From Siphonodentalium dalli (taxonomy: Eukaryota; Mollusca; Scaphopoda; Gadilida; Siphonodentaliidae), in contig CP136062.1 in NCBI GenBank assembly GCA_032622095.1, positions 140,200,351 to 140,264,350 on the forward strand: DNA of 64,000 nucleotides, written 5' to 3'. This document shows, piece after piece, positions 175-54,422 of this stretch. Every line of letters begins with the position of its first letter. The first letter of the stretch is position 1. The notes below the pieces were generated by a model. That model did not search any database. It was not told where the DNA came from and was given only the letters and a program-made list of their open reading frames with translations. Position numbers and translations under genes: made by a program.

Positions 175-278
175 CTTCTTTCATGAGGGTGATGAGAGAA
201 TGGAGAATTCTTGACGGGCCAGTGATGATCTCGGGATGAATGGTTGTAACAAAGGCTAATGCCGTCTTACTCTCAAGT
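175..278 (-). CDS. MMS19: MMS19 exon 15 (last one in the window)
   Basis: The exon encodes [17 protein letters not shown] and [16 protein letters not shown], aligned with the EASGTLAALYPVAFSSHLVPKLAEEL region near residue 520 of human MMS19. The acceptor is tttgcag and the donor gtaggt. It exits at phase 1, so the gene continues beyond the left edge. Confidence 0.88.
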
Positions 279-3200
279 CTGCAAATAAAGTATAACAAGG
301 GTTGTGCATCAAAGATGGCTCTCTTTGAGTTTTTTTGCCCATAAGAGTGAATCTGTCTGACGGAGAATCACAAAAAATTATCAAATGAGGAACCATTACT
401 CAGAACTTGGGGTCATAAAAATAAATCGGACAAACCTGGTTTTTTAACTCAATCAAGATATTATTGTGAAAGATCCATATACCCAATATGAAAGGAATCA
501 GTTGAAAATTGTTCCGAGTTTTCACGCTAACGGTCATAAAATTGCTAATAAATGACAAACTAAGGGCCGTAACTCAGGTAAAAACAAATCTGACAAACCT
601 GGTTTTCGAACTTGTTAGCTATATTGTTGTAAAAGATCCATATACCAAATATGAATGAAATTGGTTGATGTTTATTCAAGTTACTAGTATCGGCTTATTG
701 CGCTAACAAATATACACAAAATTACTAAAAATAGACAAACTGAGGGCCGTAACTCAGTTAAAAAGGATTGGACAAATCTGGTTTTCAAACTCAGTCGAGA
801 TATTGTATCAAAAGATCCATATACCAAATATGAATGAAATTAGTGGATGTTTGTTCAGGTTATCGTGCAAAAGGATATAAAATTGCTAATGGATTCTGCC
901 TTATCATAGGTCCACAAGTATGTCTATATTTCTGTTCAATGTAGTTCAAGGTATTGACATGCAGCTTAGCAGAAAATAGGTATTTAATAGTGAGTTTGTT
1001 TGCTGTGGAACCCAAGATCCTGATATTTTAAGCCTTTCTATACTAAATACTCGTTGACGAGTATTTCACATAGGAAATGTTCATATAATTAGTTCAATGA
1101 AGGACCATAGGTTGTTTGTTGAATTTATTATCTGAACATTTCCAACCAACAGATAAGAATCCTACTGCCCTTGTATTATCTGTTGTTCTGTCTGTTGTCT
1201 GCCTTTATTACCTGAACACCCCTTCAAATGAACAATAGACCATCCCCATGTATACTTTTATAACTGAATGGGAGAATCCATTCAGTATATGAAGGGTTAA
1301 CACACAATTTCAAAGCTGAACTGCTCAGTCCAGGCACTAAAGAGTTAAAGGTACTCAATCCGATCAGACGCTCCGAAATTACTATTTCTTTGGCTTCGGG
1401 GGTAAAAATATTTGATTCGAGTCGAGGAACCCACCCATCAAAGCTCAGGGTGATTAGATATCGATTTTTGAAGTTTGCAATTTCTATTGATTGTGGACCA
1501 GAACTTGTGCAGAAGCACGTGGTGAAACGGACGAAGATGAATGAAGATGGATAACTTTATTCACATCCGTTTCACCACGTATTTTTTACCCCCGAAGCCA
1601 AAGAAGTAGTAATTTAGGAGGGTTTGATCGGATTGAGTACATTTAAAGCTGTTGCTGTCCAAATCTATAATACAATTACCTAATGACGCTGTCTATATCG
1701 GTGGTCACCAGCTTAAATATATGATCTGTAATATAGACCTGTTCCTTTTCAGTCAGTACTTCTGGCAGGGACAGGAAGGCAACCAGGCTCGACAGACACA
1801 CACATCGGAGCTGCTGGTTGGTCTCAGATAGGTGAGATATATATGTTGATATAAGGCTATTGGCAAATTGCTTCAATGGGTTTGGACCTGAAAGAGGAAT
1901 GAACATGGTCAATTGTTTGGTTTTTGGGGTTTAATGTCACTTTCACCCTCTATGCCCATATCATGATCAAGTACGGATATAGTGTGTCTGACATTTGCAA
2001 AGGTTTTATGGTTTTGGAGAAAGAAGATGATTGTTGACAGATGGCCAGATGGACAAAGGATGAGGAGTGATGGCTATTGCTCTACCAGAGAGGTACCTCA
2101 GGTGAGCTAAAAATCAAGCGCTCACATGCTTTTCAAAATGTTTTGCCTGAGAAAAGGGAAATTGACTTTGCATGGCCTAATGCTAGGATTCAGCAAAAAC
2201 ATTTCTGCATCTCTTTTCAAGCCTTGAAATAGTGAGTCTGTCATTTTCAGAATGAGGTCCCCAGAGGGTGAATTTAGTGATGCTACCCCGTATAGAGGGC
2301 TAGCATCACCAAATTCACCCTCTGGGGACCTCATTCTGCTTACACCTCAGCAGAATGAGGTTCCCAGAGGGTGAATTTGGTGATGCTAGCCTGCTATGTG
2401 GGGTAGCATCACTAAATTCACCCTCTGGGGACCTCATTCTGCAAATGACAGACACACTATTTCAAGGCTTGTCTCTTTTGCTTTCATACAGGCACTCCTC
2501 ATAGGAAACTGGTACAAAATCCCAAATCTTAAATTTTGGGTTGCACTTAGTTTGAGCCGACGACACCACACATTTCAATTTAGACATTAGCAAAAACAGG
2601 ATCAGGCCAGATGTGTATATATGGACAAATATTTCCCAGGATATCTCAGAGTGAACAACAATAAACTTACTTTCTTCTGAATATGTGAATTTTTTAGTTG
2701 CTTGCACAAACCCAAGTAATGAGTTCAAGATGGTTATTCTGTGATCAGACTGGAAAGAGAAGGAAACAAGGTGTCATTCAAATTAATAAATTCTCATGGT
2801 AAACTTGTCTTGGTCAGTGTAATAATATAAGTTGTTTGGTACTACAAATCTGGATGGTAAAAAGTGATATAGCCAACAAAATATGCTTCAACTACTCTGT
2901 TTAACTTATTTGACTCAGTAGAGTACAAAAATACACAAATCAACTACATTTACTGAAGTTGCCAATGAACATCGCAGAGGTGGTGAATGGTGCCTGTATT
3001 GGAAAGAGTAATTAGAAATGAGAACTGTTTTGTGCAATTAGATGGTGTCTACATGAAGGAGAGATGTTGTCAAATGCAGTCAGTGAGTATAGCTACTAAT
3101 GTCTACACAATCTACATTTATATCCTAACATGTGCAGATGTTTTGGAAAATCCTTTATTAGCCGAATAACCTGGGGATTCGCACATTTCACATGACCAAT

Positions 3201-6200
3201 TGTGTGAGTGTGAACCGATTACCAAACAACAACAAAATTGTAAAGTGAAATGAGAATTAGCCAATCAAAAAGTGCATAAGTGATCTCTTAGGCTTAAGCT
3301 TATTGACATGGCAACACGTGATGCATGCGTGCCATGTGAAGGCATAAACCACATTTTACTTCCGTCAACATGCCGGGGTATCATTTATATTTGTGAAACT
3401 TGCTATAACTATTGTTCTGGATACCATTGATTGACAGTTTTAGGACATACATGAACATTTGGCTATATTTTAATGGATTGTCTCGACATCAAGTGGGAAT
3501 TACATAAACATTTTGAGTGCTTGGTAGATAAGCCAATTGTAAAGAATTGTAGAAGGGGCAAGTTCAACTCCAGTGGAATGATAGTGACTATGATTGAGTT
3601 GTCGTTACTACAACTATATTATTATTTAGAGCAGTTGGTAATAGACTGGTGCTTAGGGCGTGGTATATTTTATCACTTCATATTGCGTATGATTCGTCTT
3701 ATGTGATGTTATGCATTCAAGACTGTTCTTGTAGTGATGATGGTTTACTTCTGTATAATTTTATTTCGTCTTCTGAAGCTAGGCAATGGTGAGGGTGTGT
3801 CAGACAGGTAACTGTACCTATTCACCTTTAGAGAACTAATAGACACATTAATACGAAAACCTAGTCAAGTATCTAAAGGGAATGGGTACAAAAAAAGTTC
3901 AACTGTAAGCCAAATAAATCTTGTTCTTGTTTTACAATCCATTGACAAGTTATGAAATTAGAGCTTATCCACAAACATGTTTCTCTGGAAACCTAGATTA
4001 ACAGCTTGATTAACTTACTTGTGAATGCGAGGCATGCTGTTCGACTAATAATGGTACAATCTGGGAGATAACTCTATTACATGCTTGGTCCGACCCTGTA
4101 ACAACTGACTGTAATATCAATGAACAGGGAGGCAGCAGCCTTAAGTCAGGGTCACAGATGTTTCTCTTACATTCTGAAATAATATATGTGCATGCGTTAT
4201 AGAAGGAAGACAGTGTGAATAAGTGTTATAAATCAACAAAAAACTGGGGCTTGCTTACAATCAATCAACTCAATCAATACATTGTTGAGTAAGTATCATA
4301 TACCAAAATCAACAGAACATATTGATACTTGTTTAAATTATCATTTTAAGAATAAAGACAATTTAGTATTTGAGGCACCACTCTTTCATGTCTGCAGCTG
4401 GCTATTGTGGATGTCAAGTTCGGTAGTCAATAGCAACTAAAAAGTTTTCTGAATCAGTCCATAATTGTTCAATCTGTAGATATAAACACCTCAAAAAAGT
4501 AAGTTCCCACCTGATATCCCCCCATATCTTCAGATGTGGCGATTAGAATGCGGTGAAATTTTGGGACATAATCTGTTATATATGACCAACATATCTTATA
4601 ACTAATGATATTGTGAATGACTACATGCTTGAATGAACACCAATTGAATGAGACTACTTTCCAAATATCACAAAATAACAGTGTTCATGGGAACATGTTC
4701 ACGTATGTCATTTTCAAAGGTCAGAATTATCAATTAATGATAGTTAAAACTCTCCTTAACAATGTCACATTCCTCCTCTACTGCAAGAGGAACTGGCAAC
4801 CTCATAGCAGTATTGAATCCAGTGTATACTCATTACAATTAGGTCATGGTGCCTCCAACTCTTATCGTTGTATGGGGTTACATGCAGAACTAAGCGGGTC
4901 TTTACATGATTCTTTAAGTGAGTTTTCAACCAACATAATGGTTTTGTGACCTTTGAATTGATCACTATCTCAGCACAAACGGTCCTCACTCAAGAACACT
5001 CACTCAAGAACTCAGCAGGTCAACATTAGCTCACTTCATCGGTGCTAGGATACTGAATAACCGTGTAAAATTTCCTGACATTCGCCTCAGGATTCTTGAG
5101 ATACCTTGTAATATATCATGGGGGGAACGTACTTATTTTGAGATGTTTATAAAAATAGCCACAAATCTGTCCTCTAACATATGAAGTTTAATCTTGAGAG
5201 AGTTATTTTCTTCATTTTTTGTGTTATGGCATTTACTTATGAAAATATAGCTAAACTTCAATCGCAGCCTTGTGTGCTCATTTTGTTCAAAGATGGACAT
5301 AGTAATGTTGAGTCAAAAACAACATGAATATATAGTCTTTGAAGTATATGTAACTTTTTAAGAGAATTAAATTTTTAATTATATGAGAAATGTTTGACTT
5401 GCCAACAGAATCATTTTAAAAATGAGATAAGCCATTATTTGAACTTAGCTTGCTTGTATTTGCTTTACCATAAGATGGATACAAACCTTGAAATATTTCA
5501 TCCAAAAAGCTTTCAACAGGTGTCTTCCCTGCACTCTGAAGAAACATGAGAAATAAAAAGCTACATTTGAAATCTTGACGTACTAAAAATCAATATGTTT
5601 AATATTGGAAACAATTATGGCCAGTTGCATTTTAAGCCAGTCTATTTCTGCTAAATAAGATTGATGCCTCACATATCCGGGTTATAAAAGGCCATCCCTC
5701 ACAGCAAATGAGGACCTGATAAAAATTAAACCACTTGAAAGTGCTAAGCAGTTGCAGAATACCCAGACATAGAATTTGAGTTTATTCTTGATTTATTAAT
5801 GACTTCTATTAGATTTTAAATCCACAATACAACCAATAAAACTCAAAGTGCCAGTGCCAATAAGACAGTTGAAAACTTTTGGCATGCGATAAGTCACTTC
5901 TTCCAATTTGAATTCTTTACACTGGTCTCTGAATTATAGAGGTTATTTTAATATCGGAAGAGAAAACTGCCTGAAGGTTGAAGGCTGATATGAAGTTACC
6001 AAGGGCTGATAAAACATGATATCTAATTAACCCTTTCAATACTGAATGGATTCTCCCATTCTGCCATAAATGATACATTAGAATGGTTGATTCTTTTGGA
6101 GGGTTGTTCAGGTAATAAAAGCAAACGAAAGACATAAAAACAGATAATACAAGAGCAGAATGATTCATATTTATTGGTGGGAAATGTTCAGATAATAAGT

Positions 6201-9200
6201 TCAACAAATGTACTATGAGGAAACTACTCATCAATGAGCATTAGTATAGTAAAGGGTTAATAAGGATTTGTAATAGACATACCTGGATAACATCAGGTGA
6301 CAGGCGTGTAATGATAGCTGTGAGAGCGTTACATAGACATACCTGGATAACATCCGATGACAGGCGTGTAATGATAGCTGTGACAGCGTTACATAAAACA
6401 TACCTGGATAACATCTGATGACAGGCGTGTAATGATAGCTGTGAGAGTGTCACATAGACATACCTGGATAACATCTGATGACAGGCGAGAAATGATATCT
6501 GTGAGATCGTCACATTAATAGACATACCTGGATAACATCCGATGACAGGCGAGTAATGATAGCTGTGAGAGCATCACATGCACTTTTACTGAGCTCCTCA
6601 TCTTCTGAGCTGATCACCTGAAAAAATATAACGGAGTTAAAATGACAAGTTAACACATAGGATACAGAAATACAGGAAAAAATATATAGACATAACTCAA
6701 GGCGCAACTTAATCAAGAATCTTTTATCGAATGAAATCGAATGGCGCAAGGATATATTACATAAAAGCGGAACTTGGGTGAAATGTGACTGCACGTCTGC
6801 AACAAGTTTGATAAAAGATTCCAGATTATGATGCAACTTGTGTTCTGTATTTATTCAACACTCTTTTGATGGATAAGTTTAAGCCATGACAGTGACTACC
6901 ATTGATACTACAACTACCCTTATTGTGATTTAAGCCTGACAAAAAACTGGTAAGTGTCTGCGCATCACTCGAAGCAGATCGTTGACATTACGTACATTAT
7001 CACACTTTGGAAACAATGTCAACTCAAAGTAGTTCCAGTTGTATTCCACTTGTGGCATATAACAATGTGTACCCAATGGCTGGTATTCCATTGAATACTT
7101 GTGTCTCACGTCAACGGGTGAGGAATAAATAATAAGATGTAATTTTATTTAGACTTTAGAGGGAGGTTTAGGCATGTAGGTCAATCCTCCCGCCATGGGG
7201 GAGGGTAGTTTTACAGTGAAGTAACCCTCTGCACTTTCCTCTCCACCAACACCATTAAACCTGATATGACCAGTTGTTGAAAAGAGTCAAAACCAGAATT
7301 AACTAACAAACAACTATTATCTATCAATTTTGGTCCCCTTCACTGAAATATTCTGATTAATTAAACTAATTATCAACTGCTATTTCATTATATTACATTT
7401 GGCCATCTAATTTTAACACAAAAGTGATATGCGAGAAATATAGAAAATCATACCTCAATATTTTAAAAAGTCTTATTCATAATTCCTAGAATCTACAGAT
7501 TTGTTGCACTATGATAAGTCCTAGATACATTAATGCCCTAAATAATCGAGTGAGAGCTTTCTGATAAATGGCAACAAGCCATATTTCCGACTAAATCCTC
7601 AAAAATTACTCATAATTCTGCTGGGGTTAAGGAGTAGATTATTTAGGGCATTACTGTACAATGTAATATAGATAGTGAGTATACAGCATATCATAATTAC
7701 ATCACGTCTGATGCAGGAGAAAAGAGATCCTTGGAATTCTTTGAAGCAGTCAACTTCATACACCTTCGAACACTCAATCTAGAAGTATAAAAAACCTGGT
7801 ATTTATATTACAGATTGTGTAACTATTCCTGGCAGTACAGCCAAGAGCATCTACAAATTTCTATGAAACACCTATTCAAGGCACGTTTCAATTATTATTA
7901 CCAAAAACATGTACCGGTAAAATAAACATTAAGTGCTGCACATATTTCACTTATAAATGTTTTAACCTCTTCACTGCTAATGACGTTATGACATTGAGTG
8001 CTGTGCCGATGATGTTATGGCCATTTTCGGCTGGAAAAATATAATGGGAATATCACAAAGACTATAACATTTACTTAATTGAAAGGCTGTTATCATTCAC
8101 AATCGTGGAACATCATATACTGTTTGGAAACTCGAGATACAGTTGTTCTGATGCACCAATCTCTGAGTTCCAGTTATGAATCATGGCCGAGTGCTAGTGT
8201 GCTGAAGTAGGTGCATACTCAGTACAGACGTATAGCATACGGCGAGATATTTTAAGTCCCTACTCAGTACTGACGCATAGTAGCCAAGAGGTTAAAGATA
8301 GATTTACAAACAGAAATTTTGTAATCTTCTAAAAATAATCACATTTTCTGTCCCGGTTCATAGCAAATAATTGGAGAGCAATTATTTCTTGGTGACAGAA
8401 GATTGATGGGTCACTCCAGTCTCCTGAATACTAAACTCACCAGTGTTAAGTAAGAGTCTATCTTAGCACTCATGATGTTTGAGGTCATCTTCTCGAGTAA
8501 AAGTGGCAGACAATGCTGACCAAACTGGCGACTAGCAGCCAAGCAGCTTCGTAACCCTAATATCAGGTCTTCTTTCTTTATCCCATGTGGATCGTCTGGA
8601 GGCTTGAAAAATAAGGAATATCATGCATTAGCAGCCACTTAAATTGAATGGTAATAGGACTCAAGGGGCACCTGGTGGCTCAGTTGGTAAGGTGCATGGC
8701 ACATTAGGCCAACATAAGATGTTCTGAGATGACAAAGCTGGACCAGACCCGGATCAGCATGGATTTGTGATACACACCTCAGGGAAGGTAACCTAATACG
8801 TTTTTATGGTCAGTTCGTCAGTTGCTTCTGGGATCAGTGGTTTCTACACACACACACAGTGGAGTGAGTTCCCGGTGAAACTAACCTGTTGCTTGATCTT
8901 TCCTTCTCTAATAAAACTGACAATATATGACGATATATGACCTAGCAACTAACATAACGATAAACCCCAAATAAATTAACTAAACTGGTCTGAAAGAAAG
9001 TTTAAGTATCAAACCTGCAAAGAGTGTAGAGTAAATAAATGTATAGGAAAATCAATATAATATAAAACAGAATAGTGTCAGGGATTTTTCTGCCTATTTT
9101 GGGAATGGGTCCGGGTCCCTTCGAATTGGGAAAATGTGTCTTTACAGACCAAAATTGGGAATTTTCCATGTTTTAGAAAAATTCAATTAATCACTGTTAC

Positions 9201-12200
9201 ACACAAGTAAATAGTACTAATACCGTAATTTTCGGTTTCAATTCACTGCACTGTCACATGACAACAATGTAAACAACCTGATTAGCAATCACTGAGTGGC
9301 AGCCACTGCCCAGGGACCCTCGCTGCCACTCAGTGATTGCTAATCACGATGTTCAGGGAAAGTGTGAATAACGTCACGTGTTTTATATAAATCAGCAATT
9401 TATTTAGAGTTATCCTCCCTCTTTCATAAATGCGCTGACTGGTAGAGGGGAGGTAATCGCATGTTAACTTTGTTAAGCTAATAGTTAGGTCGCCGCGTGT
9501 ACATTATACGATGCGGGCTCCCGATGTCGCTGATTTACTATGGGTTTTCAGCCGTTTATCGATCGACTGAGTGTACAAAACATCGGAAAAAATTGATAAT
9601 TATTCAATAAACCCGATGGTATTATATACCTGCCTGCAATTGGGAATTTGGTGGTTGGGGAATAAAGGTGCCTTTTTCCCATTGGGAATGGGGCCGAATA
9701 CCGGACCCTGAGGACACATAAAAAAATCCCTGAGTGTCTTTAATAAAAGCCTGCAAATAGTATGTCTGTCATTTGCAGAATGAGGTCCCCCAGAGGGTGA
9801 TTTTATTGATGCTATCCTGCACAGCGGGCTAGCATATAAAATTCACCCACTGGGAACCTCATTCTGCTTAGGCCTCATCTTCTGGGAAGTATCCATAGTC
9901 TCAAGTTAACACTGTTTTTAGTTGAAGCAAGGACAATCAATGGCATGTATAGTATAGCTAGAACATTGAGCAGTCATAGAAACATGATGTCCCTGTTTAA
10001 TACTAAGAGTGACCCAGACTCCACCACTGTATTGTTAATTGTTGCAGCTTTGTTTGAGGACACAAAAAAAGACAACTTATAAATAAATAGTGGCATATTG
10101 AGTAATAGAACAAGGATGAGCTAGAAAATTTCAATGATGAATGATGCTTTAGTCCAAATCAACAAAGAGTCTCTGACACTTCAACTTCTTTGAAAACTTA
10201 AAAAACTGCCTAGTATAAATCTATCCAGAAAACAGAAACCACTTAAACCACACCCATGTCAACTATTCACATCCTTAAACTTCTGTGTTGATGGTTGTTA
10301 ACATTTGTGTAGCAGACAATGTAGCCTTTATGAAGCTGAATTAACTTGTCCGTTTGTTAATATGTCATTTGATTGTCTATATAGGAGATAAACATATTAT
10401 GTGATAGTGATATGGTTTATTCTCTGATCCAATGAACATAAATGTACTTCTGTTGAATTGGATATTCATGGATTCAAGTTCACAAACTGTATTAACCCTT
10501 TACCCAATAGAAGGGCCCTGTGCCAATGCATTCTCTTATATATGCGAGTCGACCATAGGTCGCCTCGCATATATAAGAGAATGCATTGGCTTAACACATT
10601 AAAAATTATAAAATTGTTAAAGGCTCTTATATATGCGAGGCGACCTATGGTCGTCTCGCATATATAAGAGAATGCATTGGCACAGGGCATAACTGTAACC
10701 ATCACAATGTGGTCAATGAGCCGGTTCCAATGATATCCATATTTGTATGGTTTTATTGAGACAGACCCAAGATAATTTAGGCTGTTGCAGCTTTATTTGG
10801 CCGTTTTTGGCCGGTTTGTTGGGTGAAGGGTTAATGCTCACATCCCTGAAAATCCAATGAAAAAAGGCACTTTTATCTTCAGTGTAATTCAATCCACCAA
10901 CAAATTTAAAATAAACTGCTCGAAAAAGCATTTTTACCAGCATTACATGCTGAGAAGTGAGATGTCCTTTTTCTGGGTACATTCCATGGAGTTACCTGGA
11001 ACAGCATCTGAACAAATTCCTATAGTAAACAGCTTACCGGTGGCACTAGATTATGCAACTTCTGGCTGCAAGGTGACATGTTTGATGCTCGCTGTCAATC
11101 ACAATGTGTTCCATTTCCATATCAACGACAAATATTTAACTTGAATTTCAATTGCTGATATCACACTTTATGCTTAGCACTTTATAGACCTGTTCTGTTA
11201 AGGTACTAGTCTAGATTTTACTAGTTTAGTTATTAGCTCAAAGTTCAATACTGGATGCAGTGTTTGCATGACAGTTCAGTCATTGTTTCAGAATCAGGGT
11301 CCGCGCTGGACCGAAATTTACTTTTGCCAAATAATTTGCCAAATGAAAATATTTTTTGCCAAATTATTTTACCAATTGCCAAATGCTATCCCTGATAGTA
11401 TCATTTTTTGCAACCTTATTATAAAGTCTTATGTTTCGACACTCGCGGTTTGAACCACTTTTGATATCGATAGAAATCAGTTAGTTAATATATATAATTA
11501 ATTATACTCGCATCTCTATTGTGGTTTATCATACAACAATAAGCCAATCACCGAACAATACAATGGTAGAAGGGTTTCTCCAACAGAATGGCCCATCACA
11601 GGAGGAATTAGCTATGTAAACACCACCACCACACTAAATACGGGTAATCCCTCCAACCACCGGATTAATTGCGTCTTAATAGAGGTGTTAAATTTCCCTA
11701 AACCTTATGAAAACACCATTTATATATAATTATGTTGTAAGAGTTTCCTGAAATTAATGGTATTGATTGACCAGTATTTTTCAAATTGATTGAGGAATTT
11801 AAAAGTGACTTGCCAAAACTTTTGCCAAATGAAAATATTTTTTGCCAAATGTGAATTATTTTTGCCATTGGCAAATTTGGCAAGTGGCAGCGCGAACCCT
11901 GTTCAGAATGAAGTGTTTCAGTGATAAATATATTAATGGGATTTACAAAATACTGGTGTTAAAGGCCCATTTAATTTTCGAGTCACCGATTATTTTTTTT
12001 ATAGTGCCTTAATATTCAGTTTTAATAATAATCTATGACATAAAATATGATTAAAATACTATAATTTATCACCATTTGGAATGTCTGCGTCTCAGAAGGT
12101 GCCCATAGAATAATAGAAACTAGTTGAAATCATAGAAACATTTCCCCCGTTTCGCTCCCAGAATGCAACAGAATTCAACCTAAGATATAGAGTTATACCC

Positions 12201-15200
12201 CATACATTAAAATTAGTAGACTTTGCAGTACAGTCAAGATGAAAGTTAAGCACAGAAAACACGTGGGTACCTCAAAAAAACATTATGTTCACAGTTTATT
12301 ACATGGTATAAGTTGATGTTTTGGAACTTTCTCTTTCAAATGGTTTATAGTATGGCATATATTTTATATAATGTGATCTGGGGGGTTTGAACATTAAGTG
12401 GGCCTTTAATTGTTACAGTGGCTGTGAACGTAAAGTTCAACTCAATGGTGTAAAACAGAACTTTACATTTCTGGCCTTATATCATATGGCATATTATATA
12501 TAGTTTTTTAAATTTTTGTGAATACATACAGGAGTGAAGTCGATTGGAAAATAACAGGAAACCACTTCAAACATATCTTCTACGAACACGCCTGAAAAGA
12601 GATATAAATTTTGTGTGCACAAACAGTGAAATAATATTTATGCTTCACTGCCTTCAGAGAAGCAAGTCAATAGTAATAACAATAACACACCTATGATTTT
12701 ATTGACTTCTGGAGATATCAAGTATCTATCGATATAAAAAAAAGTGTTTGTGTGTGTCTGTCTGTCTGTTACTGTCACGACTTTCTCGCATTTATAGCTT
12801 TTCACTCTACGTCCAATTTATCCCAAATTAGGAACATATAAAGAGATACATCTTAGAATACAACAAAATTTTCAGGCTAATCGGTTAAAGATGGCCTGAG
12901 ATATAGCACATTGCCCAAGGATTGCAATGGCGAAATATCTGTACGTTTAAGAACTGATTTAGCGTTCAAATGCACGGGCGCCATTGAGAGCACTATCTAT
13001 AAGATAACACTACAGCGATCTATGTGATGCTAGATATAACCGACAAAAAGATATATACCCAGGGTTTCCGCAAGGGGAAAATAAATGAGCCCGTATTTCA
13101 GCCGTATTGGGGAAACATATAGCCCGACGGGGCGACCATGGTTTGTTCCGTCGGGAGAAAATTTTGGTATTGGTCACTGAAAAGTAGTCATTTCCTTGCA
13201 CCTGAGATACTCATAAAGCAACCATATTACGCAAGTTGATCATTTCTGTGGGTGCATTAATTCTGTTGATGGTACCCAGAGCATTGATCATGAAATTACG
13301 CATGTGAGTCCGCCGTCTGATTGAATGAACAAGCTATATACGAGTTACAGTGTTTACAAATTTATAAAAAAAGGTATATTTAAACACTAAAAAGTGTCTA
13401 TGCATTGACCAATAATACGTAGCAAGGAGAATTGAATTAAGCATTTCAAAAGATTTCAACAGGTAGCTTCTGTAAAAATGAAACTGAAAGGATATATTCT
13501 GTCAATCGTAAAACTATTTGTGCACTGTGACATCATACTGCAGAAGAAATTTAAAGCGGCGTAATATGAATGGTAGCGAAATAGTTAATCTCGGAATGCG
13601 TTGCTTGTTCAATAGTCTGCATTAGTCCAACAACTATAGTTAGGACCACTGCTATGTACAGAGTTTTAGCCCCTCCTGTTACGAAATATAATAGAGTTTT
13701 GGCAGGAAATGTGAACACACGTAAATTACACTGTGTACAATTACAATTAACGTCCCTATTTGACCGCACACCAAACATTGCTTTGTAGTTTTGGTGCTTT
13801 TATTTCAAAGGGTTACACTGTACTCAGTCCTTCGATTATGAGGCGTGCGATCGCGCTCGTGAACCATAGCACGCCTGAAATTAAATATTGGCGAGTAATT
13901 AATCACACTCCTCGGCGATATTCGGCGCACGATTGAAAAAGGGTTAAACCCCGTCGCGCGTCGGATTGAGTTGAATTTTCTAGTCCAGGAGATCAGTTGA
14001 CCTCACCGCTATGGTGTACAGTAAGCAGTCGGCACCCGGCCTTTGATGTGCCGCCCACTGTTCCACATGTGACGTTGATCATTGGCACAGGGAGCACGTG
14101 ACGTGATTATCTGAGCTTGCAGAAAAACTGAATGAAATATTGCTACATGGTGTCGTGTCGGGCCTATCCAGTCGGCACCCTTTGATGCGTCCTTTGTCAC
14201 GTGATATCAATCACTCAGTTATCTGAGAATTGTAGCCACCACACAAGCTAACTTTCGGTAAACTGTATCAGATTCTAATCTTCCAACCAATAATGGCAGA
14301 GAAGGGAAATACTGTCCAGTTAAAAACCTTCATTAATTGGAACCTAGGACCCGTTATCGGTTATAAAACTACAAAAGATTCTCACGGAACCGAGATAGTG
14401 TATGAATTCTGGTGTAAGACGTGTGCTCTTAGTAGTTCCGGGTTACCGGGGTCCGACGAGAGTGCCGACAGTGACATGGAAGATGAACGTTCAGAGTGAA
14501 CAATTCAGTTGATTTAACCCTTTATCGTCCCTCACCATGGATACTTCCAAATTCATATAAAGATTTTTGTTAGTTTTAATTGTTCATTACTTCAATGTGA
14601 AGAATACATGTGTACAAGATGAATCACAATGGTGATAAAAATTGATTTAATTTTGAGTCTTCGTTCGTCATTTTATACCCCCGAAATATCCACCAAAATC
14701 ACACGCCTGGGTTTCAGGTTAGGCGAGTGACCAATCACACTCCTGCATTTTACAGAATCGAAGGACTGCTGTACTGGTAACATACTGTGCTCAATTGGCC
14801 CACCCTTTCACCAGTATTCTGTTTAACCCTCGAACTCACATTGCAGTCCGATTCTTTTTACGATAGACTGCTATTGACTTTAGGTACATGTATGTCTCAA
14901 ACATATCATCAGTGAGGGGAATGAGGCCATTACATGGACCTGAGCCATAGTAACGGAAACCCTGTAGACCTGTAAATTTTACGAGCAATCTCCTAGTATA
15001 CAAATAATTATCCCATTCACATCTCAGTGCAGAATTTTTATTTTTAGCAAACCTTTCAGCTTAGCCCTTTGATAAATGGATACTAAAATAAATGGTCAGA
15101 GTTCCCACAAACGTTTCAATTATATAATGGTTTATATGTGCATGCTCACCGAGTGGAAAATTCTGGATAATAATATTGCCACACCTAAAAGCAAGAACTA

Positions 15201-18200
15201 GATTACGTGGATCCTTCTCAGCATCCATAGCCTGTATGAAGCCATACACAAAATCTGTCTCCAACTTTTGTAACTCTAAAACAGATAAAAGATAAGTTAA
15301 TATTACATCTCACAATAAAAGTAAAAAATACCTGGAAAAAAAAATATAGATAAAAAAAAATTCTGAACATTTTATTATAGTCATATATATATAGGCTGTG
15401 TCAGCAAAAAAACTTTGATTTTGGTCTTTGATTTTCTGTTGTTCGGAAGTCACAATAAAATGTGTAGACTTGGCAGTTCAATATAGGCTCAGTCAGGATA
15501 AAGGAAACAAAGGTCTTTTTATTTTAGGCCATATACAACATCAGACTCTGTTACTATGTGGTTAATCATGGTTCAGTCAAGGATAATTAAAATAAATAAT
15601 TTCCTAACAGGCCAAATCAAAATAGTTATTTGAGTCTCAGACACTGCCGCATTGAAATAAATGGGCCGCATTGGACGTTTTAATTTGGATTTTTGATATT
15701 ATGAGAGATTAAAAAAAGTTTTTAAAAAAACATAAAAAATTTTAATTTAAAGGCCCACTTAATTTTCGAGTCTCCGATTATTTTTTTTATAGTGACTTGA
15801 TATACGGTTTTAATAACAATCTATGCCATAAAATATGATTAAAATACTATAATTCATCACTATTTGAAACATCTGTATCTGAAAACTGCTGAAGACTTCC
15901 CCCCTCTTGCAACAGAATTCAAACTTTTTCAATGAAAGGGGAAGAACTCTATCTTTAATATATAGAGTTATTCCCCCGCATTGAAAATAATACTGATTTT
16001 TACTTCAATCTTGATGACAAAACGCGCTAACAACTCAACAAAAACAACATGTCTACAGTTTATTACAATGGATAAGTTGATAATACAATATTTTGGAGCT
16101 TCCTCATTCAAATGGTATATAAAGTAATCTGGGGGTTCGAAAATTAAGTGGGCCTTTAAAGGATTTTGGTATGTTTTTACCAACATGTTCATACGTATTG
16201 AGCATTAATTGCAACATACATGAATGCACATAGTGACATAGAACATTAAGTAGATGACTAGAATGAAGAAAATGATTATAGCTGATCCTCATAGTCTGGT
16301 GTACTTTATGAAATTTAGGATCACATCTTATAATGGACACAATGTAATTTTTATATCAGATTAAATGAGTGTATATGCAAAACAAAGTTCCCTCTATGTT
16401 TTCTGACTATTGCTAGATAATATAAGCTATCATGGTCCATGCTTACGATGTGCACAAAAAAATAAAAAATAAAAATAAAGTCCTCCCTCATTGATTCAGA
16501 AGAAAAAATTGTATGAGACTCCAATAATTATTTTTTAGCCACAGTAGATTAACATACAGAACTTACCTTTTATCCTGACTTGCAGAAGATGGGATATAAT
16601 ACAATAGAGAATGTACCGATCACCCTGTGACAGTGACTGGTTGTGAACCTCCTTAAAAATTACTCTACAAACTTTCTCTGTGATTCCTTCATCTAAGTTA
16701 TCCATTCTGACCTGAAAAATATATTTAAAAAAAATTAAAATAAAGAGCGATATACCAGCCCTCATAATTGGCTATGGAAATCAGCAATGCTGAAGCCACT
16801 TGCTGACGCAAACTGGGCCATGGCAAATGGTTGCCATAGCGGATTGCAGAAGCCAAACAATCTGAATTAAGAGGGCTGGATATACTGAAAGAAGTGAAGA
16901 TTCGGATGTAACTACTCGCCAGTGGTTGGGGTTAGTTCGCTGTTGAAAATGTCCACTAGTTGTAGTGTTGATGAGAGAGATGTGCCAGATCTCAGTGACA
17001 GAGAGTATACAGGTAAGGTAAGGAATCTAGTATAAACTCCAGGTAATATCTCTATCACGAAGTTTACTGAAAGTATTGATCTGATCTGCTTTGTTTTTAG
17101 ATATGACAAGATATATGAGCAAAAGACATTAAGATATGGCATCAGTTTCAAGTTATGTTGGGATATAATAATCTATCAAATGAGTTTCATAAAATCTTAT
17201 CTCCCAACATAACGAATTGAAGAACTTGTATATCACATGAAACGAGAGGCCGATCACGATCGGCAGATGTTAACCCATCCCTTGGCGATAGTAAATTACT
17301 ATGATCGGAATCACAAATGAGAGTTTTGGTGTTGAATTATAGAGTATACTGTTATGTACTATTATAGACAAATGTACATAACACAAATTATTAGAATTTA
17401 TGGGTCACTCGCATTTATATAAGAGAATGCACTGGTACAGCTAAACCACCACAGCCTTGGGTTAAATGTGAAAGGTGGTCTGGACATGGAATACTTGGTT
17501 TAAGAGAGTCAAATTTAAGTTTACAATAATATTGTATCAAATTCTACCAACAATATAGTATAGAGATAAGCCACCTCACTGCTGACCCATTAATATCAAT
17601 TATATATCAGAGCTTTCAACAAATCACAAGAATTGTTTATGTTGAACACTGACTTCTCTATTAAACCAATACCAATTATAATGACCTCAGACCATCTGAA
17701 GATATCACTCTACAGCACAGATGTCCATGTCTACTGTTAATACCATGTGATGTTTATTGTTGAATCTTTATTTAAATTAGATACCATAGCTTTCTTTATC
17801 AGATTATTTGCACATCAATTGGCATAAGAGACATCAGAAAATAATATAGCCTTATCAATAGATAAGTAGTCCCAAGGCATGGGATGAAATTGGTGAATTG
17901 GGTTTAAAGTCGCTCCAAACAAATTTACCAGTACATAACACAAGATTATGGACCGATTTAAAGCAAATTTGGTGTGGTGACTCGGGGTACCCTTGGCAGA
18001 GTTATAATGGTGTTAGTTTTTCAAATTTTGTTACTTTAAATTTTTTTTTTCTTAATTATTTAAACAAAAAAATATTTTATTATATATTATTTTTATTTAT
18101 TTATTCATATTCATTTTTTGTTGGTTAAATTGAGCAAGGAAATCAATCTAAAAAATTTGTTTTTGTTTTTTGTTTTTAAGTGAATATATTTTTTCGAAAA

Positions 18201-21200
18201 AGGGCCATAACTCAGTTAAATATAATCGGATCAAACCCATATTCGAACTCGATCTGTATTTTGGGCTAAGAAACTCGCATACCAAATTTGGTTGCGATCG
18301 GATAGAAAATATTTGAGTTATTGCACCACAGACAGACAGACAGACGGACTAACGACGAGTGGTCAATCCGGACAACGACATTATGTTTACCATACTATGG
18401 TATGGGTAAACATAAAAAACTGAGAGCCTCGCATATATAAGAGAATGCACTGGCTTACAAGGCCAAGTAAATATTGTTAGGTCAATGTATTCTCTTATAT
18501 ATGTGAGGCTCCCTTTGGGAGACTCGCATATATAAGAGAATGCTTTGGCAAAGTGTTTTTTTGCAAAATTTCATCAAGCTCCAGTCATGAAAGGGTTAAT
18601 ACCTGAACATTCCCTAAGTTAACTACTTGTCAGCGAGTTAACTACTAGTACTTGTCAGCTGCCAAAAAGTTAAACAACTCCCCATTATCTCTGCCATATG
18701 TGGTGGAGATAAATGTGCCTTACATACTCATCTCAGATAACATACCAAAGCCAGAATTCCATGCAGGGCTGGAGGCTGTAAGGAGTGATGCTCCTGTAAC
18801 TTCTCAAGAAGAAATGTGCATAAAACATCACCTGTGAAAAGGAAGTTAAAAAAATTATGCAAATTCTATGGAAATTTTTGAATGACACAAGCTAAGCTAA
18901 ACTAGAGGTGAGACTGTCCTAATATGACTCATACCCTCCCCCACAGTGCAATTGGGGTACATTAATGGTAGCCATGTTTGCAAAAAAAAGTTGATAAAAT
19001 GGGATAACTCGGATTAACTCCCCTAAATAGCTGGTTCGCATAGTAGCAAATCTGTGTGTCAAGTTAAAAAATAAATTGACTACAAATTGTTGGAATACAA
19101 GCTTGGACAAAAATATGCAAGTTGTAAAAAAGAGAGGGATAACTCCACTAATAAAAATTGAATGGACCTCATAATCGCAGGTTCCCATGGTACTAAAAAA
19201 TATGTGCAAAGTTTTCAAAAAATTTACTGAAAAATGTAAGGAAACAAGTTTTGTCCACAGATGGTATGACAGGAGACAGATGGATGGACATGTTGATTCC
19301 TATATACGCCCATAACTTTGTTATGGGGGGTATAATGATCTTTAATGGTATTGAGATATATTATATATTCTACCAGATTTCCTTAATGATGTACATATCT
19401 CTAACAGTAAACTGGGCTTGGGACATTTAGTGAAATAAGTTCCCAAACCCATTTTTATAACAGAGAGATGAGTTGACATCTTTTGTTAACATCATTGATT
19501 GGTTCCTTTTCAGATAAATAAATATATCAAAAGATAATATACAGCTGTATGCATGGCAGAGTTTATCAATGAAGCTTATGTTATAAGGAACGTTATTACC
19601 GTGTTGAGACAACATTGAAACTGCATTGAATTAACACACAGCATGGTTGATGTATTGCTAGATCACCTTCAGGAATTTTGACTTATTCCATACCAGTTTT
19701 TTAAGTGAGAGCAGATAAATCAAGAAAATGAATTTAATTACTGGCTGTGAGTGCAGAATAAAGTGAATGCAGACAGTATCACATTAAAAGACAAGTGCAC
19801 CGCTGGGCGGAGGTAACGCCCCCGACTGTACAATCAGAGAGGAGTTTTCTTATTTTTATGCAAATACTTATTAAATGGCACTTTGTAAAGTTATGTTATT
19901 CATGAGTATTTAGTACGATAGATAATCAATTAAATGTTAAAAATGAATGTATTAAATATGAGTTATGTTATGAGTATTTAGTACGAATGAGAATGACTTG
20001 TTAAAATATGACGAGTAAAATATGATATAGAACATGAGGATTAAATTAAATGTTAAAAATGAACATATGATCCATGACCATTTAGCCAGATATTGCTATG
20101 ATTTTAAGTAACATGTTTCCTGAATATGATGAGTTAAATAAAAGAAGTACGCAAAACAACTGGCACCTGCCTTCAGGCTCATATTCCAACTCTCATTAGA
20201 CACAGGCACATTGAAAATGGACTAGCGCAGCGCCAACATAGCCTCAGTCTACAAAAAAGGAGACCGACATCAAGCGGAAAACTATCGTCCTGTGTCCCTA
20301 ACATCAGTACCGTGCAAGCTACTAGAACACCTTATATGCCGCCATATCCATGAACATCTGGAGAAGCACAACATACTAACAAAGCTAAACCATGGCTTTT
20401 GAAGGGGATATTCCTGCAAAACACAACTAGCAGTGACAACACAAGACATCTTACAATCATTTGACAACAAGAAACAGATCGACGTGGCCATCCTTGATTT
20501 CTCCAAAGCTTTCGACACTGTGCCACATGACAGCATATTGACCAAACTAAACAACTACGGTATCACAGGCCCGGTCAACAGATGGCTAGCATCCTTTCTG
20601 AAAGAAAGAAAGATGAGAGTTGCACTCGAGGGGTACTACTCATAAGAAGTTGACGTGCTATCAGGAGTACCACAGGGAACAGTATTGGGACCGCTGCTTT
20701 TTCTCTGTCACATAAATGACCTACCGGACACAGTAACATCACAAGTCCGCCTATTCGCTGATGACTGCCTCCTGTACAACCAGATAAACACCTACAAAGA
20801 CCACGAAATATTGCAACAAGATCTACGCAAACTGGAATCATGGGCCACCAAATGGGGGATGCGCTTTAATCCAACTAAGTGCTACATTATGAGCCTAAAG
20901 CAGAAGACACAAAGATTTTACCAACTAGCAGGGCAGATACTCCAAGAAGTCACAAACAACCCGTACCTTGGCGTCCAATTCTCCAATGACATGCAGTGGC
21001 AGCACCACATCGAGTCCACCACGAAGAAGGCAAACTCCACCCTCGGCTTCCTTCGGCGAAATCTCAGGTACTGCCAAATGGATCTTAGAAAAACGGCATA
21101 CATAGCATTAGTCCGCCCTCAGCTAGAGTATGCAGCAACAATCTGGGATCCACACTATGAAAAGGACAAGACAAAACTGGAGAAGGTGCAACGCAAAGCA

Positions 21201-24200
21201 GCAAGATTTATAAAACAGGACTACCGAACGAGAGAGAAAGGCTGTGTAACATCAATGAACTTCAACTACCATCCCTAGAAGCAAGAAGAAAGGAACAGAG
21301 ACTGACACTATTTTACAAAGTGGTTAAGGGATCAGCCCTGGGTATCAACTCCGAACACTACCTAAGAAACTACCGCCCAAAGAGGAAAAAGAAACCCACA
21401 AAATTCAAGGACTTTGTTAGTGACATCGTGGAGAAACTAACCACAAATAACGAAAGTGCCTACGAACCAATTCATACAAACACAGACCAATACGGATATT
21501 CCTTCATTCCGAGGACTGTACTTGACTGGAACAAACTGGACAACAGCACAGTCAATGCCGCCGACCTAGAAACATTCAAGGCGGATCTGGGAGAACAAAA
21601 ATAGCGCTCCTCACACCGTCCTGTAAAAGCCAGCTTTGGTCACTAGGACGTAACAACTACAGATACAGAATAAAAATGTTTACTATAGAAGTTTAAGCCA
21701 GGTATGTTATGAGTATTAAATATGAGTTATGTTATGAGTATTTAGTATGAATGAGAATATATAACATGAGGAGTTACAGTTACAACACTTACAGCCAGCA
21801 AACAATAGTAAAAGTAATCTACTATACTAAAGTAATCTACTATAAACTAGCAAGCATACTAGTAGCAATAACTGTTTCCGGCACCAACCGCGAGGAGGCT
21901 TCATATGCAGTGGAAATGCATAAGAAGTGGTCATGGCAAATGATACCTGGTAAGTGTTTGATATACAATGATGATTTAAACCAAGGTATTAATGAATATA
22001 GATTTGGATGAAAAATGAACTGCTTATTAAGGTAGGTTTAAACCAAGGTATTAATGAATATACAATGAATATAGATTTTGATGAAAATTGGAACAGCTTA
22101 AGGTCAGAGAACCTGGTAAGTGTTTATATACAATGATGGTTTAAACCAAGGTATTAATGAATATAGATTTGGATGAAAATTGAACAGCTTAGGTCAGAGA
22201 ATGTACCAAGAATGTAGCCTACCAGGTAACATTTTGACCAAACTTGAGGCCTGGTCAGAACTTTCTTTTCTGAGCACAGAAACTTTCTGGTTAAGCGCTA
22301 TAAAAATACCACATGTTGTTCTATATTAGCTTCAAATTTGGTCTGGTGCCACAAAAAATAGAAGGAAAACTGATTTTTCTAAAAAAAAAAACTGAATTTT
22401 TTAAGTCGAAAAAGGGTCATAACTCTCACAAAAATTATCCGATTGAACCGAAATTTTACCCTGACCTGTATTGCGATATTGGTAATACACAAAAAAAAGG
22501 GTTTTGCAAATAAACAATCCAAAATCAAGTTATCATCTGGAAACCAAAAAAAGTAGCAGAAAACCTTAAATTTCTAAGTCCAAAAAGGGGCGTAACTCTG
22601 GAAAAAATGGGCGGACGAAACCACGGCTATGGGGAAATCTTGTCCCCCCGGCTGGTCTATTGGCATACCAAAGATCAACTGAATTGAATTATCGAAACCA
22701 AAGTTATGAGTTGAAACGTTCGTACGGACGGAAGGACGGGACGACGGACGGAGGGCTCCACTATATACCCCCAAATCTCCATCGGAGATCGTGGGGCATA
22801 ACAACAAATCCACTACAGCAAACTTACATTCTTTAGAAGATAAATGTGCTGGTGGCAGTTTGTGTAGAACATTCCCAATAAGATGTGTTGCTCTGGCCCG
22901 GGAAGTCGTCTCTGTGTCTGTTAGATAGCATCTATATGAAAAGATAACAAGAGCAATGCTAGGGAAAAATCAAGCTACGCGATGTCTGAATGCTGCCGGC
23001 ACGTGTAGTTACTTAATTAAATCTAACAGTTTTTATTGAAGTTTTTGCCAGTTAAAATTCATTCTGGCTTGATCTAGACCATTTTCAAATGAATATGGAC
23101 AATTCAGTTTCTCAGAATAATGCAGAATGAATTGTACGGTAACCTACAAAAATCTCAAATAAATAAATGCGACATTTCTTCACATTACATGTAGGTGCGG
23201 GCAGCGGTAAGTCCTGCATAGGGGACTGAACTCTGCATGGAGATTGGGGAAAAATATGCCAGTGGTAATTCCAACAAAGGACAATAACTCTGGTGAAAAT
23301 TGGTGGGCGGAACTCAAATTCTAACTTGACCTGTATTTTGTACTAGTAAAAAAGAATTACCAAAACAATTAGTTTTTAGATGAATGTAAAATAGCACAGA
23401 AACAAAAGCTATATTTGCTGTAATAAGATAAGTCACAGATTTTACTAGTCACTGCACATGTGTGACACATAATATCATCATATTCTAGTCCCAAAATACA
23501 TTGTTTTTTTTTAATTTTAGAAGAGAAGACCAAAATATTTTAAGGCCAATATCCAAAGAAACTCATTTTACATTGTATATTTAATATTCAAGGGGCTCAA
23601 TTCTACAAAACTATATTTTCTTTTGCCAGCCAATGATATTGATCGTTTGTCACAGTAACATACATTTTCTGATGAGTGAGAATTAAATTTCACCAATAAA
23701 TAAAAGCACAGCCATCCAGGAAAGGAGACCAAATTCATATTTATTTGTGAATTACTCTCAAGGGTAATTAGTTACTGTTAAGAGTAATTATGTTATGCTT
23801 AAATGTAGAGTAATTATGTTATGCTTAAATGTAATTCCATTATGTAGTTAATATTTTGCATTAATGACTATGCTTAAGCATAGTTTTCTATTATGCTTAA
23901 GGTTAATTCAATTTTCAAGCTCTGACGAATAATGCTAACTGGTAAGTGTAATTCAATTAATCTAGTAAGTGTAATTCAATTAAACTAGTAAGTGTAATTC
24001 AATTAAGCTTATTGCAGATACAATCTCTCAAAACTCCCTCCAGGTTGAAATGGCTTCATAGGAAGCCTTTTTCACATTTATTTCTATTTGAGCTGAAGCG
24101 CAAATGATTTGCACTGAAGTGCAAATCATTTAGGCTAAATGAAGAGCAAATAATTTGCGCTGAGCACAAATACATAATGTTTATGTTGAAGTATTATTCA

Positions 24201-27200
24201 TTTGCGCTGAAACACAAACAAAAATCAATATGCATTAATTTCTCCCAAAACTCAAATTGAATCACGCCATGAATACATGTACATTACTCAAACAATGGCC
24301 TACTAATTTTGATGCCAAGCATGGATTGTTAGAAGCAGAGACTCCACCCATATTATGGTATGGATGGACTCAATTCTTCAGAGTCTGTGGGCAGTCTTAG
24401 GTATTAGGTATTTGCGCTTTTAGTGCAAATAAATTGACCATATTTGGGCTTCAGTGTAAATAAATTAGGCTTCAGTACAAATGTTGCACTTCAGCGTAAA
24501 TAAGGAATATATGTGGAAAAACCATTGACATATCTAAGTCATTGATCAAAATAATTTCATAATACTTCAGGTAGGTGGAGGCACTGCCCACACTGATACC
24601 ATTTTAGGTCATACCATTCTATCTAAGGTAAGAAACATAATTTACACTGCATAATTCAATTACATGTACTCCTAAGGCTAAGCATATTAAATATAAGATA
24701 GAATTATGCTTAAGAATAACGCAGCCAAGTATGCATAAGTGTCATTAATTTACACTTAAGCATAATTTCATAATGCTCAAACACAATTTTGAAATACGCC
24801 TAAACATAATTGATTTTCATGCATAATTGATTTATGCTTTAAATAGTGTAATTGATTTACTCTTCAATCTTGATCCGCTTACTTATATCTTTCTAACCAT
24901 CACAAAGTATCTACAGCAGGGAATTTGAGATACTTTGGACATTTCTGGCCACAGCATACATGTATATTACATGTATATGTAGATGATTGAGCAATCCACT
25001 AGTAGTTGAAGCCACTTACCGCAGTTCCTCTATCAGACTCAATAGACTTGAATTTCTAGATATAATTCCTGAAAGACAACACACATAAAAACAGTCAATG
25101 ATACTTTATATTTAAAATGACATGTCCTGTTGGGGACTCCCAACACCAATTCTCTATTAAAAGGTGCTAAAAATAAAATAAAAGGTCGCAGACCACATGT
25201 CCCCCGACTCGAGTGGTAAACTTCATGATTGGATTTGTTAGAAGGATACTATTTGCAACAATGTTATACAGTATATAGATGTTGCAAACCACCGAAAAAT
25301 TTCTTGGCAAAATTTCTTGGACAAAACAACCCGATGAACAAACGCATGCAAACGCGACAAAAATGGTATTTTTGTTTTAGCTATATAGATGTTGCAAATC
25401 ACCAGCATGTTAGGAACAATATCCCAGAGTTTCAAATCTCTACATTTAAAACTGTAGGAGGAGTTGATTACACCATGAAGGTACCCAATCTAATCCAAAA
25501 GGCAAAAATGTTCCAAATTTTCTAAGTCGAAAACCCCCCAAAAATATGGAAAAAATTATATTTTTCATTAGCTATATAGATGTTGCAAATCACCAACATG
25601 TTAGTAACAATATCCCAGAGTTTCAAATCTCTACATTTAAAACTGTAGGAGGAGTTGATTACACCATGAAGGTACCCAATCTCATCCAAAAGGCAAAAAT
25701 GTTCCAAATTTTCTAAGTCGAAAACCCCCCAAAAAATATGGAAAAAATTATATTTTTGATTAGCTATATAGATGTTGCAAATCACCAACATGTTAGGAAC
25801 AATATCCCAGAGTTTCAAATCTCTACGTTTAAAACTGTAGGAGGAGTTGATTACACCATGAAGGTACCCAATCTCGGACGCACGGACGCACGGACGGACG
25901 GAGGGACGCACGGACGGACGAGGGTCATTTCTATAGTCCTCCGACGGAAACGTCGGGGGACAATAATGTGTGCTCTACTGGTCCCGGTATAAATGCCATG
26001 TTGTGACATAGTTGTAATATCATGCACCTATTGTCCTATTATAACATCAAACTGAGGACAGTTGGTTCACAGGATCTAGAGACAAAGAATCAGCAGTTTC
26101 ATTATATATGTAGTCTTAGACATACTAGTAGTACATGTACATTGAATCATCTGACAAAGTATATTGTATGCCACTTTTAACTTGAGCCACAAATATTAAA
26201 CACCAAAACAGGGACAGGTGATGGAATATTTACATTTACATGACATACAACACTAGTACTTGTATATGATGAATCTGAAATTCAGAGTGATAGCACAAAT
26301 ATTAGTACATTTCATTTAGCCAAAGGAAATTGGGGATTTCTCCATTCTTAATATGACACAGGGGTGGTAAGTAGTTTTAAATTGTGCTAAAGGGCAATTA
26401 ATGGACCTTTCCACAGCTGTCAATCAAATATTTATTAGCAGATATTTTCGACCAATCAGCGACTGAGCTGGCCAATGGCTGCATTGAAAATTCTGTTGCC
26501 ATCTTTCTTCACCCTAATTTTGATATCCATGCGTACATTCAGTGTTAAATTGGCTATGTTCAAACAACTTTTTTGTTGTCAAATCATGATACACTGAGAT
26601 TTACATTTGCGCCATGATCTTCTAAATTTATCCGTGATTATAACTATGATTTTCATTTAGCATGACACTAGTCATAATTTTCACATTTAATTGCAAAACG
26701 AATGTGCGTTCTCTGGTTTAGATATATTAAACAGTTCAGGGATCTGTCTGTCTGTTCTGGTCTGTTTTTCTTCCAGAGCCCTTGACAGATTTCAACCAAA
26801 TTTGGTGTGCTGCCTCATGGGGGTACCCCAGCAGATGTTACAACGGCCGTATTTTTTAAATTAAAAATTTTAAACAAAATTAAATTTGAATTACTTTGTT
26901 TTTCAAAATTGTAAATTTTTTTTAGCAAGAAGTTTCAATCTAAATTCTAAAAAGAAAATTGAAAAATTAAATTAAAAAAGAAATTCAATTTAATTAAAAA
27001 AAATTTAAAGTTTCAATCTAAAAAGAAAATTAAAAACTTAGATTTTTTTTTAAAATTTAATTTAGAAAATAAAAATTTTAATTAAAAAAATGTTTTTTAA
27101 TCAAACTGCTTAAAAGATCAAAATTTGCACGAATCATATACATGAATCTGTTTCAGCTAGTGCAAGTGCTGATGTGTTCACTTCGGATGTCGATCTCGCG

Positions 27201-29303: not shown

Positions 29304-29347
<44 letters not shown>

Positions 29348-41936: not shown

Positions 41937-42845
41937 TGATCAAGTTTCTCAAACATAACTTTGGAAATTTTTTATACCCCTTTAAAAAAAAGGGGGGGGG
42001 GGTATACTGTTTTGCACCTGTCCGTCCGTGCGTCCATCCATACGTCCGTCCGATGTCTGTTCATGAGATAACTTGAACAGTAGTACTCGGATCTCAATGA
42101 AATTAGGTATGGATGTTCACTACTATGAGGACATTAAATAGAGGGTTCCATCGTTTTGTTCGGATTTTCCATTCTAGAGTGTTTCATCTTTGTTTATCTG
42201 GAAATGTTGGCATTTTGGTCTGTCTGGGGTCTGTTCATGTCGTAACTTCAACAGTTGTGCTGGGATCTCAATGAAAATTGCTATGGATGTACACTACTAT
42301 GAGAACATTAAAAAGAGGGTTCCATCGTTTTGTTCAAATTTTCCATTCTAGACTTATACATCTTTGTTTATCTGGAAATATTGGCTTTTTGGTCCGTCTG
42401 GTGTCTGTTCATGTCGTAACTTCAACAGTTGTGCTGGGATCTCAATGAAATTTGGTACGGATGTTCACTACTATGAGGACATTCAATAGAGGGTTCCATT
42501 GTTCTGTTCCGCTTTTCCATTCTAGAGTTATTCATCTTTGTTTTTTCTGGAAATGTTGGCTGTTTGGTCCATCCGACGTCTGTTCTGAGGTCATAACTTG
42601 AACAGTAATGCTCAGATCTCAATGAAATTTTGTAAGGATGTTCACCACTATGAGGACATTTAATGGCACATTCAACTGTTTTGTTTTGGTTTTTTGTTTT
42701 ATAGTTATTCATCTTTGTTTACATGAAAATACTGATTTTTTGGCTCCATCTGTCTGAGTATAGCAATCATAAGTTATAGATATGCCCACATCAGGCGGTA
42801 TGCGCTAAGAGGGTATGCACTGGACGACAGTCGATCTCTTGTTTT
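41937..42845 (+). repeat. Tandem repeat of about 170-180 bp, four to five units
   Basis: Units carry TGTCTGTTCATG, GGATCTCAATGAAATT, CACTACTATGAGGACATT and GGGTTCCATCGTTTTGTTC (anchors near 42055, 42230, 42408, 42583). Left boundary has a 9-G run with GTATACTG and CCGTCCGTGCGTCC. Confidence 0.9.
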
Positions 42846-54014: not shown

Positions 54015-54151
54015 GTACAGTAATGCTCTAAGTAATCGACTCCATAACAACAGCAGAATTATGGGTAACTTTTCAGGATTTAGTCGGAAATATGGCTTGT
54101 TGCCATTCATCGGAAAGCTCTCCCCGTCGATTACTTAGAGCATTACTGTAA
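54015..54151. mobile_element. Hairpin MITE (TAATGCxCTAA family), copy with matched variant arms
   Basis: Palindrome with TACAGTAATGCTCTAAGTAA and its complement. The departures from the usual CCCTAAATAATCGA occur identically in both arms. Related to 7526-7660 and 54423-54614. Confidence 0.85.
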
Positions 54152-54422
54152 CTTCTCCCTGCCACAAAAATAGTGCAAAGTGTTTGTTCTCTAGGATGAA
54201 ATGGGTGTTACAAAAATTAAATCGATCAGTAGACACTATATAATGAAAATAGGAGAGACATAATATGTCAATTAAAATGATGAAACTATGGTTGAAATAT
54301 GGAGTCTTTATATTCACATCATGTCCCCAATAACATAATATGAGTGGAAACCATGACTGACTCAAAGTTGTGCATTCACAGGTATTGGACATTCAGTTGT
54401 CATTTTTTTGCTGATAGAAGTA

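Follow-up and report, generated by a model that had tools for sequence, protein, structure and literature searches.

A tandem array of five identical 5′ splice sites at the end of an MMS19 exon

Reports on the choice among equal 5′ splice sites, cited here from excerpts of the papers, conflict with one another. In a designed human tandem-donor library the first donor was predominantly used when both donors were consensus (p 3.3e-5), and a preference for the first site at equal strength was seen library-wide, which the authors termed 'first come, first served' (PMC6783452). Two other excerpts point to later sites. SRSF1 was reported to promote intron-proximal sites and hnRNP A1 distal ones (PMC5585400), and in carriers of the human MSH6 duplication c.3936_4001+8dup, which repeats 66 exonic and 8 intronic bases, the normal transcript was not detected (PMC9818763). 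The downstream donor and exon skipping were found at 7:1 in one MSH6 carrier and some carriers had the skipped form only; the proportions vary from sample to sample, and the authors concede that a small share of normal transcript may be missed (PMC9818763). The 8-bp donor duplication rs35854239 of OCT1 (SLC22A1) was spliced correctly in 47-62% of minigene transcripts by three methods, while the aberrant form made up 0.3-0.6% in liver, where the duplication was associated with lower expression and accounted for 9% of the variability (PMC8137991). Duplication of a donor GT in SUN5 was reported as a loss of function (PMC7927044). No natural array of five donors was found among the open-licence literature matches listed, as judged by title and abstract start.

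The window analysed here is a stretch of 64,000 nt, and thirteen consecutive MMS19 exons (a-m) were placed on its minus strand (Table 1). Joined together, they gave a single open frame with GT-AG borders and without a broken exon among the 13 placed; exon m was placed on frame and borders, without a homology match of its own. Hand-joined predictions with small joining faults, of 262 and 241 residues, served as queries. The first gave a Pfam MMS19_N match (1.3e-63) over residues 1-209, which ends short of exon h, the exon at which the array lies. The second includes exon h and matched 6tc0_C, which we take to be the mouse MMS19 chain, over residues 2-241 (E 2.1e-67), and more weakly a second solved chain, 8usp_A (E 2.5e-23); that 6tc0_C is the closer of the two suggests an animal source. 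The 30 residues of exon h by themselves matched no Pfam family. The MMS19_N and 6tc0_C matches confirmed the gene named in a preceding sequence-only reading of this DNA, which had also called the exon number 10. That numbering is unproven: exon h is the 8th of 13 placed exons, and since exon a starts within a codon, it must be preceded by one exon or more, which makes exon h at least the 9th. The gene runs on past both ends of the exon set.

Table 1. Positions of the MMS19 exons and repeat copies in the window (a slash marks a splice boundary)
Feature	Position	Strand	Description
13 consecutive MMS19 exons, a-m	175..22931	-	hand-placed from frame, GT-AG borders and homology
Exon g, before exon h	7701..7778	-	homology match weak
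Exon h, with repeat copy 1	6528..6617	-	90 nt, phase 0-0, 30 residues; donor 1 CAG/GTATGT at 6528
Repeat copy 1, final 52 nt of exon h	6528-6579	-	
Copy 2	6464..6527	-	64 nt = 12 intron-derived + 52 exon-derived; TTAA kept; in-frame TGA; donor 2 at 6464
Copy 3	6404..6463	-	60 nt, without TTAA; donor 3 at 6404
Copy 4	6343..6403	-	61 nt; donor 4 at 6343
Copy 5	6283..6342	-	60 nt; donor 5 at 6283
Intron start GTATGTCTATTA past last donor	6271..6282	-	same as opening 12 bases of copy 2
Exon i, after exon h	5487..5535	-	16 residues; acceptor TTTCTTCAG/AG

Several other features were seen in the window. An interspersed repeat at 7500-7700, in the intron beside exon g, also occurs at 54014-54620 in four pieces with 87-96% identity, and 6027-6208, in the intron past the array, aligns with 1115-1300 of another MMS19 intron in opposite orientation (82% over 186 aligned positions). 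A 34-bp motif (2250-2439, 44942-44975, 45236-45269) occurs six times at no more than 3 mismatches, against 0 in 100 shuffles; four of the six form two tandem palindromes within an MMS19 intron, and the motif is probably a small interspersed palindromic element. On the plus strand, an LTR-type retrotransposon is represented by RNase H and integrase zinc-binding domains (37310-38440), and ahead of these lies a LINE-like element at 32156-35528 (endonuclease 32156-32893, reverse transcriptase 35088-35528). By eye, the frames at 30854-32139 resemble the gag/protease part of this LTR-type element, split by the LINE-like one; 31474-32139, the one frame tested of these, had no Pfam match. A further plus-strand frame at 63005-63391 contains a ubiquitin domain and a partial ubiquitin-binding domain and resembles UBTD1/2. 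In human, UBTD1 adjoins MMS19, and the UBTD-like frame and MMS19 may be an old neighbourhood. Rfam (4227 families, gathering threshold) and ARAGORN gave 0 matches.

At the end of exon h, five CAG/GTATGT donors follow each other on the minus strand, all of them exactly at the boundaries of Table 1 and as the sequence-only reading had placed them. The spacings from donor to donor are 64, 60, 61 and 60. All five donors are identical at positions -3 to +6, and their flanks are nearly so. These are the only CAG/GTATGT 9-mers on the minus strand of the 64-kb window; two more are found on the plus strand, away from the array. In sixty first-order Markov simulations of the minus strand, such 9-mers averaged 0.42 per 64 kb and never exceeded 2, compared with the observed 5 within 254 bases. 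Tandem Repeats Finder scored the array 464 at period 60 and 499 at period 121. With a period of 60, 5.0 copies and 88% matches, that is, imperfect tandem units of tens of base pairs, the array has the form of a minisatellite. Of 26 queries taken from the edges of the MMS19 exons, 25 matched themselves alone, and the donor edge of exon h was the sole repeated one. Satellite-like arrays with units of 164, 174, 178 and 191 bp also lie in the window, at 48639-50410, 42044-42721, 28764-29312 and 25359-25875, respectively.

The duplicated unit had been taken for the last 60 bases of the exon, which has to be corrected: it is best read as 52 exonic and 12 intronic bases (64), with later units of 60-61. 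Copy 2 consists of GTATGTCTATTA followed by ATGTGA...CCAG, and the end of exon h holds ATGTGATG...CCAG. Since GTATGTCTATTA also stands at the intron start past the last donor, the founding event was most plausibly a duplication of 64 bp. This reading was made by eye, as was the comparison of the duplication junction, at which no microhomology was seen. Copies 3-5 share the loss of TTAA and a T>A, and copies 4-5 have a G>A in addition. The nested order is broken at column 40 of 52, where copies 2 and 3 agree and copy 4 equals the exon. With that exception, the nested shared changes fit stepwise growth on the intron side. The description of the repeat as expanding is inferred from the changes common to copies 3-5 and is not an observation. 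The copies differ pairwise by 5.9-13.7%, and 10 of 51 exon-derived columns are variable, 5, 2 and 3 of them at codon positions 1, 2 and 3, without the third-position bias of coding repeats.

The structure of the copies also bears on whether the array could have arisen in assembly. A run of 100 N at 58562-58661, presumably a scaffold gap, suggests that the window is a draft scaffold, but this gap is 52 kb from the array, and an array of about 310 bp would fit one read. Substitutions, one indel of 4 bases and one of 1 base set the copies apart in a largely nested pattern, and their divergence argues against a duplicated-read artefact. Hence we regard an assembly artefact as very improbable.

Joining the donor at 6528 in silico to the acceptor of exon i, across an intron of 992 nt measured from donor 1, gave the junction VIQ/SAG without a gap relative to mouse MMS19 (6tc0_C; mouse segment LSCSVLRADAEDLLGS). 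Identity to mouse MMS19 inside exon h is low, and 8usp_A aligns with gaps around the h/i junction region. With donors 2-5 in its place, each longer predicted exon (4 of 4) reads V C L L M and then TGA, so that the premature stop predicted five codons past the first donor was found for every alternative donor. The TGA lies 46, 106, 167 and 227 nt ahead of the h/i junction in the four longer forms, and more junctions follow downstream. By the general decay rule for premature stops, these distances and the later junctions lead us to expect decay of the longer forms. Because 64 is not divisible by three, the first duplication would already carry the stop. Judged from the reading frame, donor 1 is the only one of the five fit for a normal product in one splicing step.

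We propose that the array was born as a minisatellite across the exon-intron border, and that the added donors are tolerated decoys, neutral or slightly costly, while donor 1 makes the normal mRNA; we consider this account probable. A single 64-bp tandem duplication (52 exonic + 12 intronic) would have copied the exon tail and its donor into the intron, after which one copy would have lost TTAA and been amplified to five copies. The normal mRNA would come from the donor at 6528, which may be favoured for two reasons: among donors that do not differ from -3 to +6 it is the one transcribed first, and it alone directly adjoins the purine-rich portion of the exon that lies outside the duplication. 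Three overlapping purine-rich motifs were found in the 38 unique bases of exon h and none in copy 1 with its 52 bases, these two parts alone being scanned, and the purine-rich stretch could help donor 1. Splicing at donors 2-5 would lead to the premature stop and probably to decay. Tolerance would be explained if, among several equal donors, the first tends to be chosen and misspliced transcripts are degraded. An old, diverged array in a gene whose 13 placed exons are all unbroken argues that donor 1 works, though it is not proof. A neutral array was one of the two options in the sequence-only reading and agrees with this account.

RNA folding gave no robust reason for donor 1 to win. Donor 1 was the most accessible of the five when folded in windows of 150 or 200; at 100 it was not, and at 70 it was tied. 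Isolated hairpin stems reached -6.0 kcal/mol in each of copies 3-5 (copy 5 differently shaped), compared with -4.6 in copy 1 and -4.4 in copy 2. A hairpin of ACACGCCTG and CAGGTATGT as a mask for donors 3-5 was dropped, its effect in context being inconsistent across folding windows.

Further points speak against the decoy account. The 12 exonic bases ahead of the donor are invariant across copies (P 0.05), which hints at a constraint not called for by neutrality, and the MSH6 precedent would, by analogy, make the array allele null. In the latter case the allele would be damaged or hypomorphic, with the downstream donors dominating as in the human MSH6 duplication, and the animal would be heterozygous or have another MMS19 source. 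However, the 13 placed exons form one open frame with GT-AG borders, and copies diverged by 5.9-13.7% are unlike a fresh null allele; a damaged allele is therefore doubtful, with little probability in our view.

The other option of the sequence-only reading is a regulated dosage valve, in which the share of decoy-donor transcripts lost to nonsense-mediated decay sets the MMS19 level and copy number tunes it. All four longer forms end at the same TGA, 46/106/167/227 nt ahead of the h/i junction, and the four decoy donors are intact despite variation in 10 of the 51 exon-derived columns. Variable columns are absent from an 18-nt block around the donor (P 0.008-0.013), but this block was picked after being seen. 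In excerpt, the OCT1 report likewise associates the 8-bp donor duplication with lower liver OCT1 expression (PMC8137991). On the other hand, conservation of the 9-nt donor, which has no variable column, did not significantly exceed that of the remaining unit (P 0.11-0.14), and an invariant run of 12 anywhere in the unit is expected by chance (permutation P 0.51). The folding energy of the array RNA equalled that of shuffles (z 0.06). No relative showing conservation was found in the prokaryote/virus collections, where a search for relatives of the MMS19 protein gave 29 pattern matches, 0 confirmed, in genome contigs and 0 in viral contigs, and the repeat unit had 0 matches in viral contigs; since these are prokaryote and virus collections, empty results are expected for an animal gene. 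Literature matches on MMS19 alternative splicing with nonsense-mediated decay were, by title and abstract start, not on the topic. The valve is thus without firm support, and we consider it quite unlikely.

If kept units were removed afterwards as mini-introns of 60-64 nt (merged, up to 245 nt), normal mRNA would result whichever donor was used first. The sequence has some features of such a recursive rescue: each unit opens with GT and closes with AG/GT, and every boundary reads CAG/GTATGT. Fission-yeast genes with tandem 24-bp AGGT units, in which introns span several units, offer a parallel, as quoted in a passage of PMC4974935. By its general definition, a recursive splice site consists of a strong polypyrimidine acceptor abutting a donor (AG/GT). 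Acceptor strength was scored with a matrix from the other 12 MMS19 acceptors, the real ones being scored leave-one-out. AG/GT was present at 5 of 5 unit ends, but these AGs were pyrimidine-poor (6-7 in 11, compared with 7-11 in the 13 real acceptors) and ranked between the 77th and 89th percentiles among 3173 minus-strand AGs, whereas 12 of 13 real acceptors were at the 92nd percentile or above. Exon d was the exception, at only the 83rd; its acceptor scored 1.1, and three of the five unit-end AGs exceeded it with 2.4-2.5. Moreover, animal introns are seldom as short as 60 nt. The weak unit-end acceptors disfavour stepwise removal of units, and a rescue of this kind is, in our estimate, quite improbable. 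Internal CACAG acceptor-like sites, which would create 35-nt pseudo-exons, were also rejected; they lay between the 56th and 81st percentiles, and including one of these exons would cause a frameshift. More broadly, it is unlikely, though worth keeping in mind, that all five donors are engaged and that MMS19 output depends on copy number, be it through a length-tunable decay valve or a stepwise self-correcting splice array.

With the human library pointing to the first site and SRSF1 action and the MSH6 duplication to later ones, the splicing outcome in MMS19 cannot be read from sequence alone. A native gene that carries five equal donors, with a wrong choice predicted to truncate the product, makes a natural experiment on donor choice, and copy-number variants of the array, should there be any, would supply a dose series. 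We see the value of the array in this experiment, and no new mechanism is established.

Comparison with the known systems, again from excerpts of the reports, places the array as follows. Intron gain by tandem duplication of AGGT is alike in that units are bounded by AG/GT and the sequence between units can turn into an intron (Drosophila PMC2891723; review PMC3443670). In the MMS19 array AGGT sites are present, the unit-end acceptors are weak and the intron is already in place; unlike AGGT intron gain, the array multiplies the donor of an existing intron, lengthens that intron and requires no new one. The stwintrons of Lipomyces share a donor duplicated at the 5′ end of an existing intron, and removal of the L. 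starkeyi stwintron in one or two steps was reported (PMC7138796). They differ in that their duplications are 4-7 nt and their nested introns experimentally confirmed, whereas the 60-64-nt units of MMS19 are known from sequence. OCT1 rs35854239 is likewise a common natural donor duplication whose second donor truncates the protein (PMC8137991), but it comprises only 8 bp and two donors. MSH6 c.3936_4001+8dup is similar in that an exon end and intron start are duplicated, the donors are identical and the longer form meets an early stop (PMC9818763). In MMS19, correspondingly, 52 + 12 bases span the donor and the frame is disrupted for 4 of 4 alternative donors. The MSH6 duplication is a rare disease allele with one extra copy, whereas the MMS19 array has four extra, diverged copies in a genome assembly.
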